Shown piece after piece: positions 1,297 to 59,352 of a DNA stretch of 64,000 nucleotides. The DNA comes from an uncultured Granulosicoccus sp. (lineage in GTDB: Bacteria; Pseudomonadota; Gammaproteobacteria; Granulosicoccales; Granulosicoccaceae), in NCBI GenBank assembly GCA_937991945.1, contig CALKLO010000025.1:62001-126000 (forward strand), given 5' to 3'. A program made the translations under genes and the position numbers. Below the pieces are notes generated by a model. It was not told the DNA's origin. It searched no databases and saw only the letters and a program-made list of their open reading frames with translations. Each line of letters opens with the position of its first letter. Within the stretch, counting starts at the first letter, position 1.

Positions 1297-2043
1297 CTAC
1301 GGCTCTTTAGCCAACGCTAGGTAGTTGGTGGTACTGAAGAACTCATCTCGCTCACGGTATTTGTCGACCAAGGCAACGCCACCTGGCGTGATTCGGTATA
1401 ACGCGAAATTGCGTTCAGTAAAAAAGTACCAAAAATCTTGAAAGAAGGTCCGCGTATCGATGTTGCAACCACCGAACTCAAATTGCACAACCCGCGTGTT
1501 TGCTAGCGCCTCAACACTGCCATTTAAGGCATCCAGCTCATGACCTTCGATGTCTAATTTAAAGAGATCAATACGACGACTCCCTAAAGTTTCTTTCCAA
1601 TAGTCATCGAAAATACGCGTGGAAATGGTTTCGCTGACATCAAAATCATTGCCGCGATGATCTAGACGTCTGCGCGTCAAACTCCCCAGACCAGAACCCG
1701 GTTTATCAGAGTACAGCGTGGCCTCTGAGACGCTAGATGACAAAGCAAATGGCTGCACGGTGACCTGAGAATCGTCGCTAAAACGACCCATAAGTATGTC
1801 TATATTGGTCTTGGAAGGCTCAAACATATGAACCTCGGCACCCGGATGAACCGTGCGAATGGCCCCCGTGTAATTGCCGACATTGCCGCCTACATCGATG
1901 GCCAAGGTTATATCGGTATTGTTGCCCATGAGTGAGCCCGCAGCCCGCAACTCATGCTCAACGCTACCAGAACCCCAACCTTTACCCTGACGACGAGCCG
2001 CTGCACGTTCAATTTTACCTAGAAGCTGATGATATATATTCAA
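1297..2043 (-). CDS. FkbM family SAM-dependent methyltransferase
   Basis: The 248-residue protein has the Methyltransf_21 (FkbM) layout. DVGGNVGNYT, near residue 50, is the glycine-rich SAM-binding loop. FEPS, about 25 residues later, is the acidic strand-2 motif, and DIEGHELDAL near residue 165 is the hallmark post-motif. FkbM enzymes O-methylate sugars or secondary metabolites; the substrate here is unknown. It is the first gene of a two-gene minus-strand unit with the FAD oxidoreductase and diverges from the HbpS-like gene across about 218 bp. Confidence 0.85.
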   Translation of the reverse strand: MNIYHQLLGKIERAAARRQGKGWGSGSVEHELRAAGSLMGNNTDITLAIDVGGNVGNYTGAIRTVHPGAEVHMFEPSKTNIDILMGRFSDDSQVTVQPFALSSSVSEATLYSDKPGSGLGSLTRRRLDHRGNDFDVSETISTRIFDDYWKETLGSRRIDLFKLDIEGHELDALNGSVEALANTRVVQFEFGGCNIDTRTFFQDFWYFFTERNFALYRITPGGVALVDKYRERDEFFSTTNYLALAKEP

Positions 2044-2184
2044 TCGGGTATCAAATTTATTGGCGCTACGAAGCTCTAGAGATTAGCAGAATCAGGAACT
2101 AGTCGGCTAATCGTGTATTTCCGGGCTCAACCCGAGAAACTCACTGGGTGCTATTCTTAGCGCCAAGCGAACACCAAAGACTGA

Positions 2185-2206
2185 GCTGCCTGCGCAGCCA
2201 TTTTTT
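2185..2206 (+). terminator. terminator-like hairpin in the leader of the HbpS-like gene
   Basis: GCTGC (2185-2189), a 4-base loop and GCAGC (2194-2198) are followed by CATTTTTT. The stem is short, but the run of six T matches an intrinsic terminator. It lies 56 bases before the ATG at 2262 with no other plus-strand gene upstream, so it would be an attenuator or a chance structure. Confidence 0.3.
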
Positions 2207-2261
2207 GTTAATTCACGTATTGCTTCCTAACCACATACCGACATCTGGAAAACTCATCTCC

Positions 2262-2693
2262 ATGGATTTAACCTTAGCTCAATCAAAGCAAATCATTGAA
2301 AGCACATTGGCCGCACAAGCCAAAAACGGTTTCAAACCAATGGCCGTTGTCGTACTGGGTGTTGCTGGCACTATCAAGGCCAGTGAAAGCCAAGACGGCA
2401 CTAGCCTTCTGCGTCCTAAAGTTGCTCACGGAAAAGCCTTTGGCGCTATCTCAATCGGCATTGGCTCAAGAGCCTTGTTCGAACGTGCCAAAAATGAGCC
2501 TTTCTTTATCCAAGCAGTCAACTCATTATGCGATGGCGCCCTAGTCCCCGTTCCAGGTGGTGTTCTAGTCCGAAACAGCGACGGTGAGTTAATCGGTGCG
2601 GTCGGCGTTACTGGCGATACATCAGACAATGATGAACTCTGCGCAGTTGCAGGTATTGAAGCTGCAGGATTAGTTGCCGATACTGGCGCGTAA
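2262..2693 (+). CDS. GlcG/HbpS family heme-binding-type protein
   Basis: The protein is 143 residues from ATG 2262. The open frame extends upstream to 2148, but that part is not protein-like, and MDLTLAQSKQIIESTLAAQ is the usual family start. The order of elements matches the family: an N-terminal helix, VVVLGVAGTIKA, a central DGTSLLRPKVAHGKAFGA-type segment, then VPVPGGVLVRNSDGELIGAVGVTGD. Members include GlcG (glycolate locus, role unclear) and the Streptomyces heme-binding HbpS. No signal peptide is seen with this start. It stands alone between divergent and convergent neighbours. Confidence 0.8.
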   Translation: MDLTLAQSKQIIESTLAAQAKNGFKPMAVVVLGVAGTIKASESQDGTSLLRPKVAHGKAFGAISIGIGSRALFERAKNEPFFIQAVNSLCDGALVPVPGGVLVRNSDGELIGAVGVTGDTSDNDELCAVAGIEAAGLVADTGA

Positions 2694-2723
2694 TTGTAGC
2701 GTTTTGCGTTAAACGATAGATTC

Positions 2724-2751
2724 CGTCTGCCAGCGTCTGGGCTGGCAGATG
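2724..2751. terminator. convergent-gene hairpin
   Basis: A perfect nine-base stem (TCTGCCAGC 2726-2734 and GCTGGCAGA 2741-2749) encloses a six-base loop and extends by one G-T and one C-G pair. It lies between the stop of the HbpS-like gene and the stop of the histidine kinase gene. Neither side carries a clear T-run, so bidirectional termination is only likely. Confidence 0.4.
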
Positions 2752-2753
2752 GA

Positions 2754-4334
2754 CTACTGCACCGTGATTTTTCCGGTGGGTAGCGTAAAACTTACCTCTG
2801 TTCCCTTGTTCTCGATACTGCTCATTCGGATGTCCGACTGATGCAACTCCAGAATACTTTTTACTATCGACAAGCCTAGCCCAGCATTACCACTGCGGCC
2901 CTCGCCCACCGTGGTCTCAGGGTAGTGTCTAGTAAACACATGAGCAATTTTCTCTTCAGATATCCCTGAACCTGTGTCCCGAACGATGACATCAACACGT
3001 TCCTTGTGGGTACGTTTTAGCTCCACTTCTATAGCGCCACCTGATGGTGTAAAACGAAGTGCATTGGCTAGCAGATTCTCAAATACTCGCTGAATCAATG
3101 CGATGTCTGCTGTGATGTCAAACTGTTGCGAGTCATCGTTTTGCGGCTTTACGCGCAACGCGATATCAGCTTGTTGTGCCTCTAACGCAAATTGTTGCAC
3201 GCAGTCAAACGTCAGCTCCAGTAATGAGAAGCGCTCTGTTTCCAACACCACACTGCCAGATGATAATTTTGAGAGTTCAAATAGCTGCATAACCAAGCGA
3301 CGCAAACGCAGGGTTTGTTTGTGTGCTGTCTCTAGGTATTTTTTTCGATCCGCCGCATCTAACGTATCAGAGCGAAGCACTAGGGTCTCGAGATAGCTTT
3401 GCATCGTTGTCAGCGGCGTGCGCAAATCATGGGATATATTGGCAAAAAACTCACGACGATTTTTATCACTTAGTTGAAGATGTTGATACTGAGTCACTAA
3501 CTGTGCAGCCATTGAATCGTAGGTAGCCGCCAACACATCTATTTCATCTCGTGGTCGTCCATTAGCACCGGCCCCTGAAAGGCGAGTTACAAAAGTTAAG
3601 TCTGTATCGCCAACTTCACCGCCACTTAATCGGTTGGGAAGTGTTTTTTGCCATTGCGTCGCTTTTTGGGTGAGCAGTCTTAGTCGCCTAGTGAGTAGAA
3701 AAAATACAGCGATGCCTGCTAACAAGGCAAATAGCAACGTACCTGCTAGCGTCAGCGTTAGATTTTTAATGCTGTAACTATCAGACAATGAATTTAATAA
3801 AGACTGATGGCGCTCGCCCGCTAACACCACATACACATACCCTAGCTGTTCAGATTGTTGACCAATAGAGGGCGTTGTAAATAAAGGCGCTACCGAAAAA
3901 ATACTCTTACTACCAACACTTCTTGGGTTAGTGCCGAATATCGGGTACACAGAATTCGGATCAAGAAACTTGTTTATGGGGGCTAAGTCTACGATAGGGT
4001 TAAACTGTTGCGCTGCATTTGCACCGAGATCATTACTCAGAATGGGCTCAATCACGTTGCCTTGCATATCGAGCAAATAGACTTCTACGCTTGGATTAAT
4101 AACAACGACGTGCTCAGTCAACTCAGCTAATGCATCAATGTTAGGTTGTCGATTAACGATCAACTCTGCATTTTCAGCCATGTACATGGCTATCGGGCTA
4201 TTGAGTTGTTGGGTGAATTCCAGAAAGTAACTTCGGCTATTTTTGTGCGATACCCATAAGGTGGTTAGCCCTAACATGAGTAATATCAGCAAGAAAAATA
4301 ACGATAGCCGAGCAAACAACGAAGAGGGAAACAT
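2754..4334 (-). CDS. membrane sensor histidine kinase (two-component system)
   Basis: The 526-residue protein starts with a membrane helix (about 8-28), a periplasmic sensor region (29-190) without a recognised ligand fold, and a second helix (191-215). A HAMP-like linker and a HisKA helix with NISHDLRTPL (phosphoacceptor His302) follow. The HATPase domain shows the N box (ENLLANALRFTPSGG), the G1 box (VRDTGSGISEE) and the G2 box (GLGLSIV). It would autophosphorylate and pass phosphate to the regulator encoded 9 bp upstream on the same strand. The signal sensed is unknown. Confidence 0.9.
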   Translation of the reverse strand: MFPSSLFARLSLFFLLILLMLGLTTLWVSHKNSRSYFLEFTQQLNSPIAMYMAENAELIVNRQPNIDALAELTEHVVVINPSVEVYLLDMQGNVIEPILSNDLGANAAQQFNPIVDLAPINKFLDPNSVYPIFGTNPRSVGSKSIFSVAPLFTTPSIGQQSEQLGYVYVVLAGERHQSLLNSLSDSYSIKNLTLTLAGTLLFALLAGIAVFFLLTRRLRLLTQKATQWQKTLPNRLSGGEVGDTDLTFVTRLSGAGANGRPRDEIDVLAATYDSMAAQLVTQYQHLQLSDKNRREFFANISHDLRTPLTTMQSYLETLVLRSDTLDAADRKKYLETAHKQTLRLRRLVMQLFELSKLSSGSVVLETERFSLLELTFDCVQQFALEAQQADIALRVKPQNDDSQQFDITADIALIQRVFENLLANALRFTPSGGAIEVELKRTHKERVDVIVRDTGSGISEEKIAHVFTRHYPETTVGEGRSGNAGLGLSIVKSILELHQSDIRMSSIENKGTEVSFTLPTGKITVQ

Positions 4335-4343
4335 AACGATGAA

Positions 4344-5048
4344 CTAGGCCATTAGTTTGTAACCAACGCCCCATACAGTTTGTATGTACTCTGGTTTGGC
4401 TGGGTTCGATTCGATTTTGGATCGCAGTCGATTAATATGTGAATTCACCGTATGTAAGTAGCCGTCGTGTCGCGTACCCCATACTTTCTCAAGTAGTTCT
4501 GTGCGATTAAACACTTGACCAGGAGACTTTGCAAAGTGCAAAAGCAACTCAAATTCTCTGGCCGTAAGATTGACAGCTCTACCTGTTATTGAAACCGTAT
4601 GACGCAAGGGATCTAAAACGATGCCGTTAACGGACACAACATCGGTTGCCACTAATCCTTGCAACGCATCGACACGTCTGAGCACCGCTTTAACACGGGC
4701 AATCAATTCATCAATGCTAAAGGGTTTGGTGATGTAATCATCAGCCCCCACATCCAATCCCAGTACACGTTCACTCTCCTCACTTCGAGCAGAGATAAGA
4801 ATAATTGGCGTAGCCGGATTAGATTCCCTTACCTGTTTGCAGATATCTAAACCGTCAATTCTGGGTAGCGTTAGATCAAGAAGAATTAAGTCCCAGCTAC
4901 CTTGCAGCGCAAGTGTCAAGCCCTTGATACCATCCGCTGTGTGCGTGATGGAATAATTCAAGTCGCCAAGGTGCAACATCACGATGTCAGCAATTTCTTG
5001 CTCATCCTCGACGAGAAGTATCGACTTTTTATTACACTCTTGGGCCAT
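4344..5048 (-). CDS. OmpR/PhoB-family response regulator
   Basis: The receiver domain has the acidic pair (VEDEQE), the phosphoacceptor Asp in LILLDLTLPRIDG (Asp58 from the ATG at 5048) and the KPF lysine motif. The C-terminal winged helix ends in the typical IQTVWGVGYKLM. The frame can also begin at GTG 5051, one codon earlier. It is cytosolic and DNA binding, and is cotranscribed with the downstream kinase. Target genes are not evident. The nearest upstream same-strand gene encodes the secreted spondin/FN3 protein, but a terminator separates them. Confidence 0.92.
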   Translation of the reverse strand: MAQECNKKSILLVEDEQEIADIVMLHLGDLNYSITHTADGIKGLTLALQGSWDLILLDLTLPRIDGLDICKQVRESNPATPIILISARSEESERVLGLDVGADDYITKPFSIDELIARVKAVLRRVDALQGLVATDVVSVNGIVLDPLRHTVSITGRAVNLTAREFELLLHFAKSPGQVFNRTELLEKVWGTRHDGYLHTVNSHINRLRSKIESNPAKPEYIQTVWGVGYKLMA

Positions 5049-52074: not shown

Positions 52075-53793
<1,719 letters not shown>

Positions 53794-53824: not shown

Positions 53825-53841
53825 ACTGGTTGGAAACCAGT
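53825..53841 (-). promoter_or_regulatory. hairpin at the groES stop codon
   Basis: ACTGGTT and AACCAGT form a perfect seven-pair stem with a three-base loop directly at the groES stop codon. The groES-groEL gap continues for about 100 bases without T-run. It may tune the transcript (processing or stability) rather than terminate it. Confidence 0.35.
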
Positions 53842-54131
53842 TACGCTTCGAAAACACCCATGATGTCGTCTTCGCGCATTACCAGAACTTCTTCACCGTC
53901 AATCTTGATTTCAGTGCCGGAATATTTACCGAATAGCACTTGATCACCCACTTTTACATCTAGAGGGCGTACGTCACCGTTTTCAGCGATCTTACCTTTA
54001 CCCACTGAAAGAACTTCTCCACGGACTGGCTTTTCAGTAGCTGAGTCAGGGATCACAATGCCACCGGCACTCGTGCGCTCTTCTTCCATGCGCTTGACGA
54101 CCACGCGGTCATGCAACGGACGAATGTTCAT
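53841..54131 (-). CDS. groES: co-chaperonin GroES (10 kDa)
   Basis: The protein is 96 residues from ATG 54131 ([18 protein letters not shown]); the open frame extends upstream to 54191 across the CIRCE region and is not coding there. The mobile loop [14 protein letters not shown] and the roof region are present. It caps GroEL. Confidence 0.98.
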
Positions 54132-54184
54132 ACCAATACGACTCCGATAAAATTCAATTATTAGGGAAACAACTTCAAGGGCTG

Positions 54185-54211
54185 TTAGCACTCACCCTCG
54201 ACGAGTGCCAA
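54185..54211 (-). promoter_or_regulatory. CIRCE operator (HrcA-binding site)
   Basis: The inverted repeat TTAGCACTC (54185-54193), nine bases, GAGTGCCAA (54203-54211) differs by a single base from the CIRCE consensus TTAGCACTC-N9-GAGTGCTAA. It overlaps the start point region of groES. HrcA should repress groESL here; hrcA itself is not in the window. Confidence 0.92.
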
Positions 54212-54263: not shown

Positions 54264-54902
54264 CTAATCGTCAATATGGCGGAATTCGGCATCGATAACA
54301 TCCCCATCGGGTCTTTTTGGGGCTTTATTGACCTGCGGCCGACCCCCAGATTCTGGGATATAGGCCGAAGCTGAGCTGCCAGAATTCTCAGCTCCTTGCG
54401 TAGCGCCAGAGCCCACAGTGGTTCCTGTTGACCCACGAGGTCCTGGCTGAGTAACGCCTGGGTGGCCGAATCCTGGTTGGCTGGAGCCTGCGTGGCCAGA
54501 CCCCGGATGGCCGGCCCCCCGGTGGCCGGACCCTCCCATTCCAGCCATACCAATGACGGATTTCGCCGCGATTCTTTTTGCCAACCATTGGCGAGACCAT
54601 GGCAACAAACACGCAAAACCAAACGCATCAGTAACAAAACCTGGCGTAAGAAGTAACACTCCGCCAATCATGAGGAAGAGCGCTTCCAGCAATTGCTGCG
54701 CGGGCATTTCACCTGAACCCATTCTCTGGCGGGCTTTGTTGAGTGTGGCTAGGCCCTGCTGACGCAACATTGCGGCTCCCAGCACGGCTGTGAGAACAAC
54801 GATGCCTAGGGTAGGAAACCAGCCCAGCGCGTCACCAACCCTCAGCAGGACGGCGATTTCCACAATCGGCATCGCGATAAACAGAATGAGTGCAAACGGC
54901 AT
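54264..54902 (-). CDS. fxsA: FxsA family membrane protein with Gly/His repeat tail
   Basis: The 212-residue protein begins with FxsA-type helices (about 4-20, 27-47 and 72-100), including LLTPGFVTDAFGFACLLP. The C-terminal half (about 119-160) is a low-complexity tail of five-residue units such as GAGHP and GFGHP. FxsA is encoded beside groESL in many gammaproteobacteria and in E. coli modulates phage exclusion. The tail is unusual. Confidence 0.87.
   Translation of the reverse strand: MPFALILFIAMPIVEIAVLLRVGDALGWFPTLGIVVLTAVLGAAMLRQQGLATLNKARQRMGSGEMPAQQLLEALFLMIGGVLLLTPGFVTDAFGFACLLPWSRQWLAKRIAAKSVIGMAGMGGSGHRGAGHPGSGHAGSSQPGFGHPGVTQPGPRGSTGTTVGSGATQGAENSGSSASAYIPESGGRPQVNKAPKRPDGDVIDAEFRHIDD
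54442..54531. repeat. six tandem 15-bp repeats in fxsA
   Basis: Six imperfect 15-bp units run head to tail (plus-strand examples CCTGGGTGGCCGAAT and CCTGCGTGGCCAGAC), encoding a repeated pentapeptide of the form Gly-x-Gly-His-x. The repeat keeps the frame intact. Confidence 0.85.
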
Positions 54903-55100: not shown

Positions 55101-57581
55101 ATGCAACAAAGAGATTTTCCCAATCAACGAGTGAGCCGATGGGTGGTCGCGACATGCGCCGCTGCTCTTCTACTCATTACGTTTGTTGCTGCGCAGTCTC
55201 CTGCCATTGGCAATCTACTCGGTGGCAACCCAGAGCCTCTTGCACCCGAGGTCGCCTATATACCCAGTGTCACGGATACCAGTGCTGAAGCTATAACCGT
55301 TAGCTTTCAGATAGAAGATGGCTACTACCTGTATCGAGATAAAACCTCCTTCAGCATCAAATCCGTTGAGCATGTGTCCAGCTTGTCCTCAATCGTGGCC
55401 GATGCCTCGATGAACTTGGGTAGCGTCAAGTTCCCAGAAGCCAAAACCCTCACAGATGACTTTTTCGGTGAGATGGCCATCTATCGAGACGAAGTGAGCT
55501 TTGTTGTTCCCTACTCCACGTTGTCCGCTATCAGCGGCGGTGTCATAGCCGTGAAGTATCAAGGCTGTGCTGATATCGGCCTTTGCTACCCCCCTATAAC
55601 CGTTGAACTCCCATTCGACTTACCTCAGGCCAACAAAACCTCCATTGCTCAGTCCATTATCGGAGGCAATGCGCTAACGATGCCGGCTGCTCCAAGCTCG
55701 AGCGGTCTGACGTCACCTGTTATCGGCGCACAATCCGGCGACAAAAACATTTTTGGCGAAAGCAGCGCGCAAGACGAATTGCTTCCACCAGAGCTGGCCT
55801 ACCTTCCGCAAATCTCTAGCGCCACGTCAGAGCAGATTGGTGTTCGCTGGTTCATCGAGCCAGGCTACTACCTATACAGACATAAGCTTTCTTTCTCGCT
55901 GGAAAACTTCCCTAATGCAACACTGGGAGCTATGCAACTCGACCCAGGCGTTGATCAGCACGACGAGTTTTATGGCGACGTTAAAGTGTTCCGCGATAGC
56001 GCTAATGCTATCGTTGCTATCAACGTCGAGAACGTTGATACAGTTCCAGCCAATGCGAACCTCATTATTCATTATCAGGGTTGTGCTGACATCGGTGTTT
56101 GCTTTCCACCCAGTCAAACAAGCTTGCCGCTAAGCTTCGATTCTATTGAAGCTGGCCCAGCTGTTATCGCCGCAACTATATCGCCTACCGATAGCAACTC
56201 AGGATCAGCCATTCAGGTTGCAGCTACTACACGCACTGGCGAAGTGGTTGATCAGTCAGAACAAGATCGACTTTTCGACATGTTGGGAAGCAACAGCCTT
56301 TGGCTCACGGTGGCAACCTTCTTTGGGTTTGGCATATTGTTAGCGTTCACACCTTGCGTACTGCCCATGATTCCTATTCTCTCTAGTCTCATTGTTGGTC
56401 AAGGAGACAAGATGAGCACCGCAAGGGCTTTCCAGTTGTCGCTCGTCTATGTGCTGGTGATGGCAAGTACTTATGCCATTGTTGGTGTGATTGTTGGCCT
56501 ATCCGGCTATAACGTTCAGGCCTTTTTACAAAACCCTTGGGTGTTATCGGTCATCGCAGCTCTCTTCGTTGTGTTGTCTCTGTCTATGTTTGGTTTTTAT
56601 GAATTGCAGATACCTGTTCGGATGCAAGAGAAGCTGACAAAGTGGTCAAACAAGCAAGGTGGTGGACAAGTGTCCGGGGTTGCCGCGATGGGATTTATTT
56701 CCACTCTTATCGTCGGCCCTTGCATAACCGCACCCTTAGCCGGTGCCTTGATTTACATTGCCAAAACCGGAGATGCTTTCATCGGTGGCGCTGCGTTATT
56801 CGCCCTCGGTCTAGGCATGGGCGCACCGCTATTGCTTATAGGAACCTCGGCTGGCAAATTTGTACCCAAGGCTGGCGCGTGGATGAATGCCGTGAAACAT
56901 GTATTCGGTATCATCATGCTCGGCATGGCGATTTACATGATCTCGCGTTTTATCCCATCAACAATCACTATGGCTTTGTTCGGTGTACTAGCGCTGTTTA
57001 GTGGTATCTATTTTGGCGCTACCGACACCCTCACTAAAGAGAGCAGTGGATGGCAACGCTTTGGTAAAGGCTTTGGCCTTGTTGTGTTGTTGTACGGTTT
57101 GGCTCTACTAATAGGCGCTCTGTCTGGCGGCGGTAGCTACACCACACCACTGCGCGGCATCGCCAGCAGTGGCAATAGTGGCGAGCAAGTCGAAACCAGC
57201 GAACATCTGGCCTTTGCACCGGTGAAAAGCGTTGCACAGCTTAACGCTATCGTTGCTCAAGCCAGCCAAGAAAATCGACCCGTGATGCTCGACTTTTATG
57301 CTGACTGGTGCATCAGCTGCAAGGAAATGGAAGCATTCACCTTCACTGATAATAGAGTGCAAGCGTTGTTAGAAAACGCAATTGTCATTCAAGCGGATGT
57401 CACAGCTAACGATGACCTAGACAAAGAACTACTAAAGCACTTTGAGCTTTTCGGCCCTCCAGGCATCATTTTTTATAACACTGACGGCGATGAAATTCGA
57501 TCAGCACGAGTGGTTGGTTTTATGGCTGCCGGAAAATTTGGTGATCATGTTGAACGTCATATCGGTAACTCCAGCATCTAA
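55101..57581 (+). CDS. dsbD: thiol:disulfide interchange protein DsbD with duplicated N-terminal domain
   Basis: The 826-residue protein is well above the usual 560-600. Two DsbD-alpha domains lie in tandem (about 45-178 and 227-352), each with a YQGCADIGxC motif (Cys156/162 and Cys328/334). The eight-helix core follows with AFTPCVLPM and GPCITAP, the electron-relay cysteines. The C-terminal thioredoxin domain has DWCISC (Cys737/740). It carries reducing power from cytoplasmic thioredoxin to the periplasm. Confidence 0.95.
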   Translation: MQQRDFPNQRVSRWVVATCAAALLLITFVAAQSPAIGNLLGGNPEPLAPEVAYIPSVTDTSAEAITVSFQIEDGYYLYRDKTSFSIKSVEHVSSLSSIVADASMNLGSVKFPEAKTLTDDFFGEMAIYRDEVSFVVPYSTLSAISGGVIAVKYQGCADIGLCYPPITVELPFDLPQANKTSIAQSIIGGNALTMPAAPSSSGLTSPVIGAQSGDKNIFGESSAQDELLPPELAYLPQISSATSEQIGVRWFIEPGYYLYRHKLSFSLENFPNATLGAMQLDPGVDQHDEFYGDVKVFRDSANAIVAINVENVDTVPANANLIIHYQGCADIGVCFPPSQTSLPLSFDSIEAGPAVIAATISPTDSNSGSAIQVAATTRTGEVVDQSEQDRLFDMLGSNSLWLTVATFFGFGILLAFTPCVLPMIPILSSLIVGQGDKMSTARAFQLSLVYVLVMASTYAIVGVIVGLSGYNVQAFLQNPWVLSVIAALFVVLSLSMFGFYELQIPVRMQEKLTKWSNKQGGGQVSGVAAMGFISTLIVGPCITAPLAGALIYIAKTGDAFIGGAALFALGLGMGAPLLLIGTSAGKFVPKAGAWMNAVKHVFGIIMLGMAIYMISRFIPSTITMALFGVLALFSGIYFGATDTLTKESSGWQRFGKGFGLVVLLYGLALLIGALSGGGSYTTPLRGIASSGNSGEQVETSEHLAFAPVKSVAQLNAIVAQASQENRPVMLDFYADWCISCKEMEAFTFTDNRVQALLENAIVIQADVTANDDLDKELLKHFELFGPPGIIFYNTDGDEIRSARVVGFMAAGKFGDHVERHIGNSSI

Positions 57582-57744
57582 GTATCGACACCGCTGCCAA
57601 CAACAGCAAGCCAAGCTGCGAAAAATCTCAACATTGGCGTCATTTCTGCGTAAGTAGTCAAGTTAGGAGAGGCCTGCAAGTCAGTCCTCTTCCTGTTTGA
57701 TTCAACTTGAGAGCACGGACGTAACCCGTCCTAGGCGCAGCCAT

Positions 57745-59352
57745 ATGTCACCCAGTACCCTACCGAATGTAGCCAGCCAATCTACACTGCACGAAAATGT
57801 TAGTTGGAAGCAGCCTGCTCTATTGCTAGTGCTGAGCAGTTTGACTCTGTCCCTACACAGCGTGCAAGGCCATGCGCAATCCTTTACAGAACCCGATGAG
57901 CAATGGGTAGAGTCTGCTGAGCTTTGGCAAGCACACGTTGACGACCTAAACGAACAACTCAAGCCACCTGCTATCAATCATTGTGAGGGACTCATTAGCC
58001 ACACAGATGCCTTACCTGTCCCACCGATAGGCCAGTCACCGTATATGAATCTCTATCTTGATCCTGCGTTCAACACGCGAAATAGGAGAATCAGCGACAG
58101 CCGCGACGGTCAAGTTCATCGCCCCATGAGTAACGATGCTCAGGCATGGAATGCGGATGAAAGCTTGTTAATTTTACAGCGCTACGATGATGAGGCCACC
58201 CGCCCCAAGTTCGTATTAATGGATGGTAGTAATTACCAACAACTGGGGGATCTTAGTATCAGTGTTGCGGCAAGCGATACGCTTTACTGGAGTCATCATA
58301 ATCCCCTGTCCGTTTTCTATGTCTCAGACGAGGCAGACCACGCAGGTCAGCTCCAACGATTTGATATCGCTACCGGCACTCAAGAACAAATCGCAGACTT
58401 TGCACCCGTTTGTGCCGCGCACGGCTTCACTGCCAATGGTGGTCTATTTTCTAAGCCCTCCATAGATGACGAATTGTTCGGCTTCCAATGTGGCGTAGAC
58501 AATGATTCTTCGATAGTCATTTCTTATCAGTACAGCACTGATGAATTTCACACGCTTGACGTCGGTATCGATACTGCGTGGACACTTGATCAAGCACCGC
58601 AAGCCATGCCCCATGGAAACGGATTTTGGTACCAAGGGGTTGCCTTAGACACTCAATTAGAAACGGCAAGTACGGTAAAAACCGACAGTATCGCGTTTGC
58701 CCCCAACGGTGCCAAGATATCTCCCGTTCAACAACAAACCTCTAACTGGACAGCGATGTCTAACATCGGCTACGGTGAACTTGAACACTTTGCAAAAGAG
58801 AGCTCGGCTCCCACCTATTTTTCAGAAATATTTTTAGTCAACGCTAACAATACTGATGCGCCTGAGATGTGCCGAATTGCCCATCATCGAACCTTTGGCA
58901 CCGAGGCTAACAACGCAAACTACAATGCCGCCTTAGGAGAACCCATTGCCACAATGAGCCCCTCCGGCACTCGTGTTTTATTTAATTCAGACTGGTACGA
59001 TTCAGGTTCTGTCGACACCTATACCGTTGAGCTTCCTAGCTTCACTCGGCTTCAATTAGAGGGTCGTTGGGCAGATCGCCTTCAGCCCAACATGATTACC
59101 CGTATTGCTCAGGCTGGCGCTCGTTTTGTTTACAGTCGAGCCCTCATTAACGAGGGCGAAAAGCCTGTAGTGACAACAGGTACAGGGCGTATCAACGGCC
59201 GACAAATCGATGTAGAGTATGTGAGCAAAGTGGCAGACAAACAGGTACCTGGATCTTGCACGGCAACCATTGAAAACGATATAAACGACATTGCATTTAA
59301 CTGTAACGATACCCATTTCGGTGACGCTACCTACAACCTCATTCGCCAATAA
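57745..59352 (+). CDS. secreted protein of unknown function
   Basis: I do not recognise a family. The protein is 535 residues from ATG 57745, which gives a signal peptide ending near GHAQ|SF; an upstream TTG at 57697 is an alternative. The mature part looks beta-rich with spaced blocks such as WNADESLLILQRYD and MSPSGTRVLFNSDWYDS, reminiscent of WD40-like or TolB-type propellers. Several cysteines suggest disulfides. No anchor is seen. Confidence 0.6.
   Translation: MSPSTLPNVASQSTLHENVSWKQPALLLVLSSLTLSLHSVQGHAQSFTEPDEQWVESAELWQAHVDDLNEQLKPPAINHCEGLISHTDALPVPPIGQSPYMNLYLDPAFNTRNRRISDSRDGQVHRPMSNDAQAWNADESLLILQRYDDEATRPKFVLMDGSNYQQLGDLSISVAASDTLYWSHHNPLSVFYVSDEADHAGQLQRFDIATGTQEQIADFAPVCAAHGFTANGGLFSKPSIDDELFGFQCGVDNDSSIVISYQYSTDEFHTLDVGIDTAWTLDQAPQAMPHGNGFWYQGVALDTQLETASTVKTDSIAFAPNGAKISPVQQQTSNWTAMSNIGYGELEHFAKESSAPTYFSEIFLVNANNTDAPEMCRIAHHRTFGTEANNANYNAALGEPIATMSPSGTRVLFNSDWYDSGSVDTYTVELPSFTRLQLEGRWADRLQPNMITRIAQAGARFVYSRALINEGEKPVVTTGTGRINGRQIDVEYVSKVADKQVPGSCTATIENDINDIAFNCNDTHFGDATYNLIRQ

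Follow-up and report, generated by a model that had tools for sequence, protein, structure and literature searches.

The window, by which we mean the whole 64,000-nucleotide stretch of DNA analysed here, carries a dsbD gene at 55101..57581 on the plus strand, an open reading frame of 826 residues whose Pfam and NCBIfam (PRK00293) matches give the order alpha1-alpha2-beta(TM)-gamma. All features of the gene that follow lie on the same strand. The protein begins with a probable signal peptide (55101..55193, approximately residues 1-31) that has a basic start, a hydrophobic core ending in AAQS and a presumed cleavage site. Two DsbD_N domains follow, the outer one, alpha1, at 55233..55604 and the membrane-proximal one, alpha2, at 55770..56123. 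PF11412 matches the protein twice, with 166.6 bits for the whole protein (cut-off 25); the separate scores of 86.3 bits for alpha1 and 89.0 bits for alpha2 come from a profile search in genome coordinates, which were shifted by 62000 to window positions. The alpha1 cysteines, C156 (55566-55568) and C162 (55584-55586), lie in the motif YQGCADIGLC (residues 153-162), and those of alpha2, C328 (56082-56084) and C334 (56100-56102), in YQGCADIGVC (residues 325-334). By site mapping the cap loops are DDFFG (residues 119-123) in alpha1 and DEFYG (residues 288-292) in alpha2. One flexible linker separates the two alpha domains (55635..55772, approximately residues 179-224; pLDDT below 50) and another leads from alpha2 to the membrane domain (56148..56246, approximately residues 350-382; pLDDT below 50 for 350-361 and 363-382). 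The membrane electron carrier beta (DsbD_TM, PF02683, 326.7 bits) occupies 56298..56954 (residues 400-618), and gamma, the C-terminal thioredoxin domain (PF13899, 51.9 bits), occupies 57234..57479 (residues 712-793) with the motif WCISCK. The cysteines of beta, C419 (56355-56357) and C541 (56721-56723), and those of gamma, C737 and C740, are invariant in 56 aligned proteins. The initial annotation had proposed two complete N-terminal redox domains, each with a YQGCADIGxC cysteine pair, within 55233-56156 (residues 45-352); the two PF11412 matches bear this out, coordinates included, the motif is exact in both domains and the interval spans both of them.

The alpha, beta and gamma domains together with the curated whole-protein model identify the protein as DsbD, with a score of 718.2 bits against PRK00293 (cut-off 330). 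The best stretch of this match starts at residue 217, just ahead of the alpha2 domain, which makes alpha2 the domain that serves as the canonical alpha in NCBI's DsbD model. Upstream of dsbD and divergent from it, on the minus strand, lie fxsA (54264..54902; PF04186, 125.3 bits), groES (53841..54191; PF00166, 122.6 bits) and groEL (52075..53721; PF00118, 271.2 bits). In E. coli K-12, dsbD is also divergent to fxsA, groS and groL, with cutA, dcuA, aspA and yjeH interspersed. Because the protein passes PRK00293 and the divergent fxsA-groES-groEL arrangement is as in E. coli, we read the gene as an ordinary dsbD orthologue, most likely the housekeeping one of a Granulosicoccus-like gammaproteobacterium and neither an extra nor a mobile copy. 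A protein search of plasmid records found 1945 records with DsbD-like matches, none of them at 60% identity or above, and the nearest named relative among the loci fetched is a Granulosicoccus MAG with 74% identity to the window DsbD. The gene after dsbD (57697-59352, plus strand) encodes a probably exported protein of about 551 aa that has a TTG start and no Pfam match. A second DsbD in the genome of the window was considered and excluded: apart from alpha1 and alpha2 the genome has a single DsbD_N match (the third, on contig C158), which forms the C-terminus of a DUF255/YyaL-type protein. That protein (loci L003, positions 1-1842, and L150) ends in a divergent DsbD_N with the cysteine pair CDDEVC, and other members of the genus repeatedly show DsbD_N matches about as strong, most of them in reading frames of some 800 aa.

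An AlphaFold2 model of the protein was built from 56 aligned sequences; of 57 relatives put forward for the alignment, L049 and L059 were left out because of stops in the stretch used. The model reached a mean pLDDT of 80.9 and a modest pTM of 0.58, so the relative placement of the domains is not to be read from it. The prediction is confident for both alpha domains (pLDDT mostly above 90), for gamma and for most of the membrane domain; the model has two confident beta-sandwich domains, with residues 179-224 and most of 350-382 disordered, and a helix at residues 11-32 that spans the probable signal peptide. Foldseek ranks DsbD gamma structures first, and among alpha-type targets nDsbD of E. 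coli and of Neisseria score best; as each target is aligned once, these matches do not test the two alpha domains apart. When the PDB was searched by profile and by sequence, the matches listed (in the second list the best 60 of 73) were all either individual DsbD domains or general proteins of the thioredoxin fold.

Our comparisons show that the pair is a genuine and well-kept feature of the protein. Alpha1 and alpha2 share 33% identity with each other, and 33.6% and 33.3% with E. coli nDsbD. Since the copies are about as far apart as each is from E. coli nDsbD, and since the pair recurs in relatives, a recent or assembly-made repeat is ruled out; the occurrence of the pair in one reading frame of 110 distinct proteins excludes chance. 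These 110 proteins, each with exactly two alpha domains and taken after removal of 6 duplicate loci, all carry both cysteines in both alpha domains. The cap loop of E. coli (residues 68-72) forms a shield over C103 and C109, according to the available excerpt of one study (PMC7347389). Asp68 of this loop (E. coli numbering here and below), Tyr42 and the last proline of CYPP are each present in 110/110 proteins in alpha1 and again in alpha2, and Gly72 in 109/110 and 110/110, respectively. Positions 69 and 70 of the loop vary in both alpha domains of the tandem proteins, and variation at residue 70 is also reported in that excerpt among 134 sequences (PMC7347389). We considered whether one copy might be degenerate and ruled this out, as 0/110 rows lack a cysteine in either domain. 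Measured against the nearest relative (L034), alpha1 has a dN of 0.24 and alpha2 one of 0.20, compared with 0.52 for each linker; dS is saturated in the domains and in most blocks, for which reason no dN/dS ratio is given. Median identity is 15% in the linker residues 176-226 and 34-37% in the domains. Over 129 compared columns the commonest residue has a mean frequency of 0.51 in alpha1 and 0.49 in alpha2, so that the two are equally conserved. As judged from these alignments, neither alpha copy is decaying. The suggestion of the initial annotation that both domains may be active is well supported by this comparison, and by the confident predicted fold of both.

The tandem form is found well beyond the window. 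We counted as a tandem pair two DsbD_N (PF11412) matches less than 700 bases apart. In the search of relatives 34 of 57 genomes, the window's own included, have such a pair: 23/27 in the genus (window included), 4/9 among other members of the family and 7/21 among other members of the class. The spacing is a multiple of three in every pair of this search; one genome (G005) is tandem through one pair and has another that lies in two different frames. The four genus members with no pair each have one weak DsbD_N match of 39-45 bits, about the strength of the YyaL type, and three of the four are less than 82% complete. At least 36 of 232 genomes of a class sample carry the tandem pair, a count made up of 30 pairs among the matches listed and six genomes (G000, G017, G031, G036, G044 and G050) that are tandem from the search of relatives. 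A phylum sample of 100 genomes gave any DsbD_N match in 50. Among these matched genomes the tandem pair occurs in 4 of 24 from the class (three from one family plus the window's own) and in none of the 26 from outside it. Some gammaproteobacterial groups thus carry the tandem form often, and in the sampled part of the class it is a minority. Its named carriers are, among others, Methylomonas, Methylobacter, Crenothrix, Thiomicrorhabdus arctica, Leucothrix, Thiodiazotropha and tubeworm symbionts. Of 80 loci fetched by similarity to a tandem query, 78 have two or more alpha domains; this selection says nothing on frequency. The statement of the initial annotation that classic DsbD has one such domain holds for E. 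coli (locus L114) and fails as a wider rule, the two-domain form being common in Gammaproteobacteria. The same annotation had allowed that this form might be both widespread and described; widespread it is, and we found no description of it in the open-licence literature among the matches listed, a scope outside which most subscription papers lie.

Several unusual arrangements came to light in this survey. Another genome of the genus (G016) has two separate alpha pairs, on contigs C92 and C194, and apparently encodes two tandem-alpha DsbDs, and a Cocleimonas MAG (L071, approximately 1962-4964) encodes a DsbD with three complete alpha domains and a cysteine pair in all three. Loci from two genomes of the genus, L194 (3798-4565, minus strand) and L195 (284-988, plus strand), each encode a stand-alone, apparently secreted alpha domain, which in L194 is a PF11412 match; a CcdA-like DsbD_TM protein and a DsbA-like thioredoxin are encoded close by (assigned by Pfam for L194 and by reading for L195). 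The L194 locus also has two CxxC redoxins and, by reading only, a CzcA-like pump, and reads as a split DsbD in what is likely a metal-resistance locus; a profile search of the window's genome gave no such stand-alone alpha match.

In order to address the age of the duplication, we used position profiles of alpha1 and alpha2. With rows held out, 109/110 alpha1 and 107/110 alpha2 domains were assigned to their own position. Whole groups were held out too, because close relatives in the training set could by themselves cause good assignment: all domains remained correct for Methylococcales (22/22 alpha1, 22/22 alpha2) and Thiotrichaceae (6/6 and 6/6), and in Granulosicoccaceae 26/27 alpha1 and only 16/27 alpha2 were correct. 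Under the same group-wise hold-out, alpha1 resembles the alpha1 profile more closely than does the alpha2 of the same protein in 26/27 Granulosicoccaceae, 22/22 Methylococcales and 6/6 Thiotrichaceae. When their family is held out, the two alpha domains of the window DsbD score +4.9 and -0.4 bits, and alpha2 of Granulosicoccaceae is then only weakly alpha2-like. As the two profiles are recognisable across families, the duplication looks old, and the assignments support a single duplication that would predate the split of Methylococcales, Thiotrichaceae and Granulosicoccaceae, less firmly so for the window's own family.

Of the domain search and phylogeny of the two halves that the initial annotation had proposed, the search gave a clear answer, two DsbD_N domains, and the alpha-domain trees are poorly resolved. 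A quick tree of this short domain needs 8 changes between alpha1 and alpha2. Under one-clade tests, a single old duplication and a duplication in Granulosicoccaceae only both escape rejection; all three one-clade constraints outscored the free tree, the best being the one that groups all alpha1 together, 20 log units above the Granulosicoccaceae-only duplication, and none is decisive. On a quick membrane-plus-gamma tree of 153 proteins the tandem or single label changes 11 times, at least 4 of these changes being forced by well-supported branches. Three single-alpha proteins from the family of the window, L189 with L190, and L191, sit inside tandem clades, which reads most simply as at least two losses of one alpha domain, as far as this tree can tell. 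Such nesting indicates that the loss of one domain is tolerated and that two outlets are not essential. We scored 45 single or stand-alone alpha domains, two repeats uncounted; 34 lean towards alpha2 and 11 towards alpha1, five of them by less than 2 bits. On the same tree the DsbD of L065, a record titled Aquificaceae MAG, groups inside Thiotrichaceae, which suggests a misbinned contig or a transfer.

The window DsbD does not show the E. coli-like count of exactly one alpha domain, as it has two. We take the number of alpha domains to be a variable trait of DsbD that does not define it, given how widespread the tandem form is and that DsbDs with one alpha domain nest among those with two. The nested losses and the three-alpha protein of Cocleimonas show that this number is free to change, as would be expected if the second alpha were simply redundant, raising the local concentration of outlets with no distinct role and being kept or lost near-neutrally. 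A freely replaceable copy would be expected neither to keep its cysteines at both positions in every one of the 110 proteins nor to fall into position-specific types common to several families, and we hold this explanation to be rather improbable.

That alpha1 and alpha2 are recognisably different types by profile could instead mean that they divide the labour and serve distinct client sets, for example CcmG/ResA-like proteins on one side and DsbC on the other. Two positions offer weak hints of such a difference: the one equivalent to E. coli 50 is mostly Ser/Thr in alpha1 and Leu in alpha2, and the one equivalent to E. coli 113, directly after CYPP, is Gln/His/Thr in alpha1 and Met/Ile/Gln in alpha2. 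However, just these two of the 129 columns compared pass the divergence threshold, the active-site frame is identical in both domains, and some relatives have lost one alpha domain. Several candidate clients are encoded in the genome, which is in keeping with division of labour. A client scan that took in eight of the thioredoxin- or redoxin-type proteins found there gave one DsbC-type protein, with DsbC_N and Thioredoxin_2 above cut-off but under the cut-off of the NCBI DsbC equivalog, one CcmG/DsbE family member above cut-off (173.5 compared to 123.15) and at least three ResA/TlpA-like CxxC proteins that match DsbE/CcmG and ResA/TlpA-type models below cut-off. On balance, we think it unlikely that the two domains serve separate clients. 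Equally doubtful is the broader proposal that a large share of Gammaproteobacteria use a two-outlet DsbD whose alpha identities have stayed separate since before the families diverged because they serve different clients; if it were true, the single-outlet E. coli enzyme would not be typical.

DsbD is a textbook transmembrane electron carrier. The E. coli chain from thioredoxin to the membrane cysteines, cDsbD, nDsbD and then DsbC, CcmG or DsbG is established, and the mechanistic work covered by the available excerpt addresses the one alpha domain that E. coli DsbD has (PMC7347389). We favour, with somewhat better than even confidence, an old internal duplication of the output domain, after which both alpha domains would be redox-active outlets reduced in parallel by gamma. 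Cytoplasmic thioredoxin would pass electrons to C419/C541 of the membrane domain, these to C737/C740 of gamma, and gamma would hand them via an alpha domain to clients in the periplasm, for example DsbC and CcmG. Each alpha domain is predicted by the model to be tethered by a flexible linker, and gamma may reduce either of them directly and in parallel. Both alphas would in turn reduce clients, which would give each pump two tethered outlets whose client preferences would overlap and might differ in part. Having a second outlet would be helpful yet dispensable, because some relatives seem to have lost one alpha.

The same linkers raise the question of whether electrons might run in series instead, from gamma to alpha2 to alpha1 and then to clients further from the membrane. 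Alpha1 is the outer domain and in the model has a long disordered linker, and the gap between the two alpha domains is variable, at 16 to 106 residues in the 110 proteins, both of which would suit such a relay. Yet the linkers, judging by their apparent length, would let gamma reach both alphas, and to our knowledge there is no precedent for exchange between two capped immunoglobulin-fold domains; cDsbD, DsbC and CcmG have thioredoxin folds. The complexes of nDsbD named in the available excerpt are with these three proteins (PMC7347389). A relay is the least likely of the readings of the second alpha domain, and we regard it as very improbable.

Parallel outlets would leave the known mechanism of DsbD unchanged and would not constitute a new kind of system. 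What makes the tandem protein worth attention is that methanotrophs, sulfur oxidisers and marine Gammaproteobacteria commonly carry the two-alpha form, with both sites kept in every protein compared, and that it offers a natural system for testing outlet choice within one protein.

Compared with known systems, the window protein is like E. coli DsbD (b4136) in its alpha-beta-gamma carrier, the alpha cysteine pair, the cap-loop frame, the match to the DsbD model and the divergent fxsA-groES-groEL genes, and differs from it in having two alpha domains in place of one (L114). It also resembles ScsB of Proteus mirabilis (PDB 6c29), a DsbD-like protein whose periplasmic part is reportedly described, in a paper title, as a tandem immunoglobulin-fold domain. 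The Foldseek match to 6c29 is weak (11% identity, TM 0.33 on the target). ScsB works with ScsC, as the available part of one paper has it (PMC8900818). The five neighbouring genes of the window dsbD that were scanned are GroEL, GroES, FxsA, one with no family and an MFS protein, with no thioredoxin-type (scsC-like) match among them. An ScsB identity, weighed after the 6c29 fold match, is supported neither by the curated DsbD model nor by these neighbours. The window protein has the same architecture as the tandem-alpha DsbDs found in Methylococcales, Thiotrichales, Thiomicrorhabdus and tubeworm symbionts, relatives known from their sequences alone; aligned rows outside Granulosicoccus are 40-49% identical to the window DsbD, and many of these relatives differ from it in a shorter gap between alpha1 and alpha2. 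The second outlet is apparently a widespread and overlooked variant of DsbD, built on a family, a domain and a mechanism that are already known.
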